Part shown: positions 6,830 to 8,648 of the stretch, piece by piece | How positions within the stretch are numbered: the stretch's first letter is position 1 | How the letters are laid out: each line of letters opens with the position of its first letter | Assembly: GCA_025938055.1 (NCBI GenBank) | Contig: JAICQC010000118.1 | Coordinates: forward strand, 1 to 11,114 | Length of the DNA stretch: 11,114 nt | Direction of reading: 5' to 3' | Origin: Anaerolineales bacterium | Lineage (GTDB): Bacteria > Chloroflexota > Anaerolineae > Anaerolineales > Villigracilaceae | Notes under the pieces: generated by a model | What the model was told of the DNA's origin: nothing | Database searches by the model: none | Seen by the model: the letters and a program-made list of their open reading frames with translations, nothing else | Position numbers and translations under genes: made by a program

Positions 6830-7561
6830 ATGCCTAAGAAAAAGAAGCACATTGAAAAAGAGGAAGCAGAGGAGATCGAACAAACCATCGATTCATATAC
6901 CGGGGAATTGGAGCCGGTAGCGGAAGATGCCGATCAATTTATTGAAGTTGTGCCCGAGGAGACGGATGACCGCAATGGGCAAAATTACCTGCTGAACGAG
7001 GAAACCAGCATGGATTCCTATGCCGCAGATGCGGATGCCGACGCTGTCGCCGAACAGTCTGCTCTCTACACGGACGATGAAGCTATCGAAGATGATTTTG
7101 CCGATCGGCAAAAACTTGCCGCGGCGGGACGGGACATTATGCAGGAGGAGTTGGAGGAGCATAACTCGCTCTCACCAGAGATTTCCGGCGGCGATTTGGA
7201 CGCCTCCTGGCAAACCGCCAATCAGGCGGGTGAGGAAACAGTGGGCGGCAGTGTGTCCACGCCCGATCAGGATGTCGTCGATGAGCTGGGAAAGGCGGCG
7301 GGTCTGACCTATGCAGATGACGAGCCCCTCAACTCTGGGGAAAAGGTCCTGGACCGCGACCGCGATCGCTGGGAACTGAACCCTGCCTCTGCCCAGGATC
7401 AGGACGAAGAATCGGAAGTTGAAGAGGAGGACGAAGACGAGGAATTGGATGAACTGGAGGAGCTTGACGAGCTCGATGAAGAAGAGGACGAGGATCTCGA
7501 GGAAGATCTAGAAGATGATGAATTCATCGATGGCGAACTTGAAGAAGATGAGGATGTATAA
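6830..7561 (+). CDS. highly acidic DUF6335-like protein
   Basis: A 243-residue cytosolic protein with no signal peptide or membrane segment. It begins with a short basic patch (MPKKKKH) followed by a long acidic, probably disordered region. Residues 115-187 form the only conserved-looking part: SGGDLDASW (119-127), then ETVGGSVSTPDQDVVDELG, and RDRWELNPAS (178-187). This resembles the DUF6335 family as I remember it from cyanobacteria and other bacteria; the assignment is from memory. No catalytic motif is visible. The tail (190-243) has 40 acidic residues out of 54, with Leu spaced every three residues in LDELEELDEL. The ribosome binding site AAAAGGAG supports the 6830 start; an out-of-frame ATG at 6822 is closer but opens a short frame. 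The next gene starts 26 bp downstream with its own strong ribosome binding site. The function is unknown; a stress-related role is speculation. Confidence 0.8.
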   Translation: MPKKKKHIEKEEAEEIEQTIDSYTGELEPVAEDADQFIEVVPEETDDRNGQNYLLNEETSMDSYAADADADAVAEQSALYTDDEAIEDDFADRQKLAAAGRDIMQEELEEHNSLSPEISGGDLDASWQTANQAGEETVGGSVSTPDQDVVDELGKAAGLTYADDEPLNSGEKVLDRDRDRWELNPASAQDQDEESEVEEEDEDEELDELEELDELDEEEDEDLEEDLEDDEFIDGELEEDEDV

Positions 7562-7587
7562 AAATCTTGAGGTCATAAGGAGTTGCC

Positions 7588-7922
7588 ATGGGTTTTGATC
7601 AGTATCATGAACCTCCCCAGGAACTTTCTGAGGAAACACGCACCTATATACGTGTCCTTCAATCGCTGATCGAAGAAGCGGAGGCAATCGACTGGTACGT
7701 CCAGAGACTTAGTGTGGAAAAGGATGAAGAGGCTCGTGCGGTGATGAGTCACGCCCAAAAGAAGAGTTTATTTATTTTGGCATCGATCTTGAATTTTTGC
7801 TGCGCCGTACTCCGGTCTGGCGCAATACGCCAGCGTGCGGCGTGAAAAACATACTTTTCAAAAAGGACGATCTGACTGAATTGGCAGAGAAAGCAGAAGA
7901 AACGATTCATGAAGAGGAGTGA
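7588..7922 (+). pseudogene. encapsulated-ferritin (EncFtn)-like gene with a -1 frameshift
   Basis: The frame from ATG 7588 (ribosome binding site AAGGAG at 7577-7582, 5 bp spacing) encodes YHEPPQELSEETR, then LIEEAEAIDWY, a clear EncFtn N-terminal half, but ends at 7845 with an unrelated tail. From 7761 the EncFtn sequence continues one frame back: EEFIYFGIDLEFLLRRTPVW, then ILFKKDDL, to TGA at 7920-7922. One extra A in the AAAA run at 7757-7760 would join the halves into 111 residues. Compared with Rhodospirillum rubrum EncFtn, ligand E32 corresponds to E30 and E62 to E60, but the ligand H65 corresponds to Y63. EncFtn proteins are two-helix ferroxidases that form a ferritin-like site by dimerising, normally inside encapsulin shells. 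No targeting tail of the GSLxIGSL type and no encapsulin gene is visible. It may be a decayed gene, a homopolymer sequencing error, or, less likely, a recoded gene. Confidence 0.82.
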
Positions 7923-7933
7923 AGTCCGTAGTA

Positions 7934-7960
7934 TTGATGGTAACAACCTTAAAATACAAT
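7934..7960 (+). promoter_or_regulatory. possible promoter for the PRC-barrel gene
   Basis: TTGATG (7934-7939) and TACAAT (7955-7960, 5 of 6 consensus) lie just after the stop of the frameshifted EncFtn-like gene. The 15 bp spacing is shorter than ideal, so this is a weak call. It would allow the PRC-barrel gene to be expressed on its own. Confidence 0.3.
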
Positions 7961-8006
7961 CACTGCTTTACGCGATAGCGGGAAGCAATCCTACATGAGG
8001 TGCGTC

Positions 8007-8648
8007 ATGCGTTTGACCAAAGGAGTCGAAGTGTTTACTGCAACCGGTGAAAAAATAGGGACGGTCAGCCGTGTTGTTATCGACGCGAAAACCAGAGATG
8101 TGACCGATCTGGTCGTTGAAAAGGGGGCGCTCTTTAAGGATGAAAAGGTCATCCCAGTAGGGCTGGTCGATCTTGAGAATGAAGAGCGTATCGTGCTGCG
8201 GGAGACTAATCAGGATGTGGATGATTTTCTTGACTATGAAACAACTCATTACATCCCGGTCGATCATGCCGGGTCACCTGAGAGCGGCATAGAGGCAACC
8301 TACTGGTATCCGCCGGTTAACCTGCAGGTTCCCCAGGGCGGTATGATGACGGGGGCTATGCCCGATCGGGCTCTACAAACCGAAACAAGCATCCCCGAAG
8401 GACGCGTGACAATTTCACAAGGAGCGCAGGTTTTTAGCTCAGATGACCAGCATGTCGGGAATGTGGAGGAGGTGATCGCTAGTTCTGACAATAACACCGT
8501 TACCCACTTTGTCGTTGGCAAGGGTTTTCTGCTCAAAGAGCATAAATTGGTCCCTGCCTTCTGGGTGGTAAATGTCTCCGACGATAAGATCTTCCTGTCC
8601 ATCGAGGCGCGTGTCTTTGAGCGCTTACCCGATTACCAGCCTTATTAA
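8007..8648 (+). CDS. double PRC-barrel domain protein
   Basis: A protein of 213 residues with two PRC-barrel domains. Domain 1 spans about residues 2-70: RLTKGVEVFTATGEKIGTVS, with VTDLVVEKG and KVIPVGLVD. Domain 2 spans about 134-205: VTISQGAQVFSSDDQHVG, with VTHFVVGKG and KLVPAFWV. Each shows the two-strand GxxVFxxxGxxxG pattern followed by an IxVxKG strand. They are joined by a linker of about 60 residues rich in Pro, Tyr and Gly. PRC-barrels are small beta-barrel modules that bind partners in photosynthetic reaction centres, ribosome maturation (RimM) and stress proteins; here the partner is unknown. I chose the ATG at 8007 because TGAGGTG (7996-8002) sits 4 bp upstream and MRLTKG is the usual start of such proteins; an in-frame ATG at 7995 would add 4 residues. 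It ends 8 bp from the convergent glycosyltransferase gene. Confidence 0.88.
   Translation: MRLTKGVEVFTATGEKIGTVSRVVIDAKTRDVTDLVVEKGALFKDEKVIPVGLVDLENEERIVLRETNQDVDDFLDYETTHYIPVDHAGSPESGIEATYWYPPVNLQVPQGGMMTGAMPDRALQTETSIPEGRVTISQGAQVFSSDDQHVGNVEEVIASSDNNTVTHFVVGKGFLLKEHKLVPAFWVVNVSDDKIFLSIEARVFERLPDYQPY

Follow-up and report, generated by a model that had tools for sequence, protein, structure and literature searches.

The locus and its two reading frames

The window, by which we mean the whole 11,114-nucleotide stretch of DNA that was analysed, carries on its forward strand a gene of the EncFtn-like family that is spread over two reading frames. The gene is preceded by AAGGAG (7577-7582, +), a sequence resembling a ribosome-binding site and lying five bases 5' of the ATG. 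Its first half (7588-7758, +; 57 codons in frame 0) was recognized by its match to the Pfam family PF22277 and by its identity to an intact copy, L001, located in the MAG of an Anaerolineales bacterium. A purine-rich stretch (7756-7766, +) carries the change to the -1 frame, in which the second half (7761-7922, +) reads as 53 residues, EEFIYFGIDLEFLLRRTPVWRNTPACGVKNILFKKDDLTELAEKAEETIHEEE, up to the TGA at 7920-7922. The open reading frame that starts in frame 0 (7588-7845, +) encodes 85 residues, and its out-of-frame tail with the stop codon (7759-7845, +) is not conserved in the relatives.

The L001 copy is identical to the two halves at 81% of 57 and 79% of 47 aligned codons, respectively, and what the window reads in its -1 frame follows on directly from the first half in the intact relatives. 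This agreement is far beyond chance and confirms a single EncFtn-like gene over two frames. It bears out an earlier note, made from the sequence alone, that had described one protein broken in two by a -1 shift of frame; the relatives are uninterrupted across the site, and the joined protein has the 111 residues given there when both frames are read. The comparison with related genomes that the note proposed yielded an intact, syntenic copy in L001 and no conservation of the tail of the 85-residue frame.

Relatives and genomic context

Relatives were collected in genome contigs using the 85-residue protein as a query (best 80 of 243), as a second set of proteins (120 best of 6556), and as 149 full-length proteins pooled from three match lists, among the matches listed. 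Intact relatives are mostly 103-110 residues long. A strict pattern, at least 95 residues with an ExxH motif, was satisfied by 76 of the best 80 of 243 loci. L004, which is intact with the His, and L036, in which the contig end cuts the gene but the His is present, fit by eye, and the two remaining loci, L003 and L040, are each frameshifted by a single base, at sites other than that of the window (EncFtn-like genes at L003:6001-6345 and L040:6001-6345). Among 31 further loci, including L082, L083 and L099, which duplicate L001, L002 and L050, the pattern was found in 29, and L089 and L103 have EEYKHF.

In L001 the gene order is that of the window, around an intact EncFtn-like gene of 105 residues. 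The upstream neighbour (6830-7561, +) encodes an acidic DUF6335 protein (PF19861, E 1e-29), 81% identical to that of L001 over 171 residues, and the downstream neighbour (7995-8648, +) a PRC-barrel/DUF2171 protein (PF05239, PF09939), 72% identical. For the other genes, identity over the matched stretches was 93% for CimA, 83% for LeuB, 91% for IlvE, 77% for GT4 and 81% for GH. The order DUF6335, EncFtn-like, PRC/DUF2171 (6830-8648) is common to the window and L001; in the other loci compared, up to L082, which is the place of L001, no DUF6335 match was found at E 1e-8.

The gene was carried by one of 301 genomes of the order of L001 (L001 itself), by two of 120 of its family (L001 and L002) and by 43 of 400 genomes drawn from its phylum, at 46 places. 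None of these 46 places in the 43 Chloroflexota genomes has an in-gene stop; an internal stop suspected in one copy was discarded, the flagged TGA being the natural stop at the gene end. A DNA similarity search against plasmids gave one match, of 112 bases, in Bradyrhizobium. The protein search returned seven plasmid records and no phage record, and therefore no sign of a phage gene. Plasmid records of Bradyrhizobium, Rhodopseudomonas and Gemmatirosa hold relatives (58-63% over 86% of the intact relative P0002; CP069301.1, NZ_CP133114.1, NZ_CP044544.1, NZ_CP025114.1 and NZ_CP007129.1).

Family membership

In a Pfam profile search, residues 5-58 of the 85-residue protein matched PF22277 (EncFtn-like) with an E-value of 8.7e-16 and 57.9 bits, the curated cut-off being 27 bits. 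Because the open reading frame exceeds this cut-off, automated annotation would find the family, and its database entry does carry PF22277; the expectation that automated calling would miss the ferritin was thus mistaken. The profile check suggested for the joined 111-residue protein also returned PF22277, and joining the halves with an X at the junction raised the score to 69.3 bits. The second half by itself gave no match in a Pfam search up to E 1. With TIGR04535, the encapsulated ferritin model, the 85-residue protein scored 55.7 bits, below the NCBIfam cut-off of 125, and so did the intact relatives L001 and L014 (86.5 and 91.2 bits). The predicted structure of P0002 (pLDDT 76, pTM 0.59) had 5n5f, 3k6c and 5l8b as best PDB matches in Foldseek (probability 1.00, TMt 0.72-0.74, rmsd about 6).

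The gene fits the short EncFtn class without targeting peptide (s-FLP) described in an excerpt of PMC11202242, in that it would encode 111 residues if read through and has no targeting peptide. The s-FLP of Nitrosomonas europaea, NE0167 (PDB 3k6c), is alike in its length of about 95-110 residues and in having no targeting peptide, and it is matched by the intact relatives in sequence and by the P0002 model in Foldseek. In contrast to 3k6c, the window copy is frameshifted and has a Tyr in place of a His; its subfamily starts with MGFDQYHEPP, and a four-residue insert is present in the window and some of its relatives. With the EncFtn proteins of R. rubrum (Rru_A0973, PDB 5da5) and H. ochraceum (5n5f) the gene shares PF22277, and its intact relatives share the fold, as judged from the sequence of L001 and from Foldseek with the P0002 model, whereas the window has neither shell gene nor targeting peptide and L001 and L014 lie below the TIGR04535 cut-off.

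Shell gene and targeting peptide

No family-1 shell gene was found among the genes of the window, and a GIGSL-like C-terminal targeting peptide is absent from its frame, which ends in EETIHEEE. The designation 'EncFtn encapsulated ferritin' in the earlier note holds for the family, by PF22277, but 'encapsulated' is not supported for the window protein, for want of both elements. Two sets of genomes carrying the subfamily gave PF04454 (family-1 encapsulin) in 1 of 25 and in 0 of 41, some of these absences being possibly gaps, as completeness is not given; the 25 genomes come from a list of 26 loci from which L039 was left out, and 3 of 14 controls were positive. The pattern G[SN]L within the last 25 residues, used to detect targeting peptides, occurred in L075 alone among the best 80 of 243 loci (79 with a stop codon), and in 6 of the 149 proteins among the matches listed, all as KKGNL(I/V)EL, which is not a targeting peptide. 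The family-2 shell PF19307 was present in 2 of 31 subfamily-carrying genomes and in none of 14 controls.

Matches of the MGFDQYHEPP subfamily to 'encapsulated ferritin' should not be read as evidence of an encapsulin compartment, because of 66 genomes, whose completeness is not given, one yielded a family-1 shell gene. We use 'shell-less' with caution, since the review that names the s-FLPs, first classed as non-encapsulated, leaves their entry into a shell open, in the part of the text at hand (PMC11202242).

The one PF04454-positive genome of the 25 is that of L075, an Actinomycetes MAG. Its EncFtn-like protein belongs to the same subfamily (60% to the 85-residue query over residues 1-72) but differs from that of the window in a C-terminal extension, TGTLGIGSLREGSD, and in an encapsulin gene directly downstream (L075:6001-7184, the gene with the GIGSL tail being followed at once by the encapsulin gene). 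This tail resembles the family-1 targeting consensus SDGSLGIGSLKRS given in an excerpt of PMC8346489. In the Chloroflexota genome G697, two family-2 encapsulin genes (PF19307) lie close together (C1:8781250-8785808), and the EncFtn-like gene is located elsewhere, away from this pair.

A tyrosine at the metal site

In the hidden frame, the codon at 7773-7775 (+) is TAT (Tyr) where the alignment of the relatives has the conserved iron-ligand His of ExxH. The motif is also out of frame, and ExxH, the functional motif of the EncFtn-like family, is thus missing from the window. The frame of the second half had been correctly given in the earlier note, but the Tyr, which emerged from the alignment with the relatives, had been overlooked. 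Residue 63 is His in all of the 120 best of 6556 relatives, and the position is His in 148 of the 149 full-length relatives among the matches listed. The sole non-His among these 149 is P0144, a full-length protein in which Asn replaces the iron ligand (EEFINF).

Conservation reaches 95% or more at 61 columns of the 149 relatives among the matches listed, and the window deviates from these at the Tyr alone. The deviation is notable for its place and not for its number, because 62 of these 149 relatives also depart at one column at least. The Tyr codon, which belongs to the active site, begins 12 bases after the start of the shifted frame. By alignment to the solved EncFtns, the position is equated with what would be His65 of R. 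rubrum EncFtn. Excerpts of PMC5012862 place the irons of that protein between Glu32, Glu62 and His65, and report that the H65A variant elutes as a monomer. Tyr for His is here confined to the window and to another broken copy, P0124, which fits that His being essential.

Recent loss or sequence error

Between the window and L001, pN/pS is 0.128 for the first half, 0.123 for the second and 0.125 overall, values that are rough for this gene because its synonymous change is saturated. The adjacent genes gave 0.203 (DUF6335) and 0.226 (PRC), and the others 0.178 (GT4), 0.166 (LeuB), 0.073 (IlvE) and 0.049 (CimA). These ratios argue for purifying selection on the gene through most of the time since the window and L001 separated.

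We favour a recent, real loss of function of the EncFtn-like gene, to which we give a probability of about 0.7. On this reading, the bacterium would be a close relative of L001 in which a gene encoding a short, shell-less ferroxidase of the EncFtn-like kind was inactivated not long ago. By homology with EncFtn, the intact relatives would form two long helices; pairs of them would create a di-iron site whose ligands are Glu, the Glu of ExxH and His, and they would assemble into rings of ten. A net loss of one base in the purine-rich stretch would interrupt helix 2 of the protein immediately ahead of ExxH; the change of the His ligand to Tyr would be a second lesion. The 85-residue product would keep helix 1 and part of helix 2, followed by a foreign tail, and no iron site would be expected in it. 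We infer that the change belongs to the organism and not to the assembly, and that the activity has presumably been lost. The broken copy itself would be an ordinary gene loss, likely of a dispensable gene. Papers on encapsulin or ferritin-like pseudogenes or frameshifts included none on such a loss, as far as titles and the opening of abstracts tell.

The main rival to a real loss is a sequencing or assembly error, with the organism's gene in frame and the His-to-Tyr change either alone real or an error as well. We regard it as unlikely, though the change is a single base within a purine run, a pN/pS of 0.125 is typical of a live gene, and no conserved column other than that of the Tyr is departed from. 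The gene appears free of damage beyond the two lesions, as would also be expected from an error. Similar frameshifts are present in 2 of the best 80 of 243 relatives; some of these may be assembly errors, and that of L003 lies on a contig with a name like that of a long-read unitig. Against an error, the ten other genes of the window contain no internal stops despite 29 homopolymer runs of 5 or more, and the identical 85-residue protein is found on two contigs, which may both derive from the same reads and the longer of which has the window's length of 11,114 bases. A second lesion at the active site, so shortly after the start of the shifted frame, also speaks for the loss being real.

Other broken copies and remaining alternatives

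Proteins shorter than 100 residues numbered 8 of 157 among the matches listed, a count inflated because short query sequences were used, and none of the 120 best of 6556. P0124 reads KEEFIYFGIDLNF and then exits the frame; it has the same Tyr as the window, breaks at a later place and departs at 5 of 44 conserved columns. P0125 breaks later still, with the His present, and P0123 breaks near the window's place. A hidden Tyr in P0123 was considered and dropped, as the protein letters do not settle His versus Tyr. In the tree, which is poorly resolved with weak deeper support, P0011 groups with P0124 (0.98), and P0012 and P0093 group with the window (0.78). Shared ancestry of the Tyr in the window and P0124 was set aside, as this tree does not join them; the Tyr may have arisen separately in the two. 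It seems improbable that indels at two hot spots flanking ExxH, a purine run on its 5' side and a T run on its 3' side, repeatedly inactivate shell-less EncFtn-like genes in wild populations, with loss of the His ligand accompanying them, at a locus that would be dispensable or switched on and off.

We think it still less probable that the 85-residue protein is a working, conserved short form. The short proteins P0123, P0124 and P0125 do rank next, with 94%, 100% and 94% of the 85 residues aligned. P0124 and P0125, however, retain KEEFI(Y/H)FGIDL and exit the frame later, and the agreement of their tails with that of the window reflects nothing more than the same stretch of DNA being translated in an identical wrong frame; only P0123 exits near the window's place. 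Of the best 80 of 243 loci, 76 satisfy the strict pattern given above, and the broken ones are L003 and L040.

Recoding at CAA-AAG, raised in the earlier note, is the least plausible: a -1 ribosomal slip on the A-AAG tetramer would yield the full-length protein, with Lys at the AAG, the commonest residue there (95 of the 120 best of 6556 relatives), and a -1 frame free of stops up to 7919, but the full-length relatives among the matches listed lie in one frame and require no slip, C CAA AAG does not have the X XXY YYZ form of a slippery heptamer, the downstream folds are at most mildly better than shuffles (7762-7841, z -0.80, 41 of 200 shuffles equally good; 7766-7825, z -1.86, 10 of 200; 7810-7840, z -1.35, 16 of 200), and the product would still be without the His ligand. 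The heptamer and stimulator, conserved in relatives, that mark a programmed -1 frameshift were thus not found.

The four-residue insert and other features of the window

The stretch linking helix 2 to helix 3 is longer by four residues, within TPACGV, in the window and in 13 of the 149 full-length relatives among the matches listed; these 13 form no single group in the tree. The insert was considered as damage and this was rejected, because intact relatives share it. In the predicted model of P0002, residues 84-91 have a pLDDT under 50. The insert adjoins DNA able to form a 6-bp hairpin with a 5-base loop (7817-7844, +), in which 7817-7822 would pair with 7828-7833 and which overlaps the TPACGV codons (7827-7844), as seen from the fold and the alignment of the relatives. 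Elsewhere in the window, a methyltransferase gene (1415-2179) is located between leuC and leuD.
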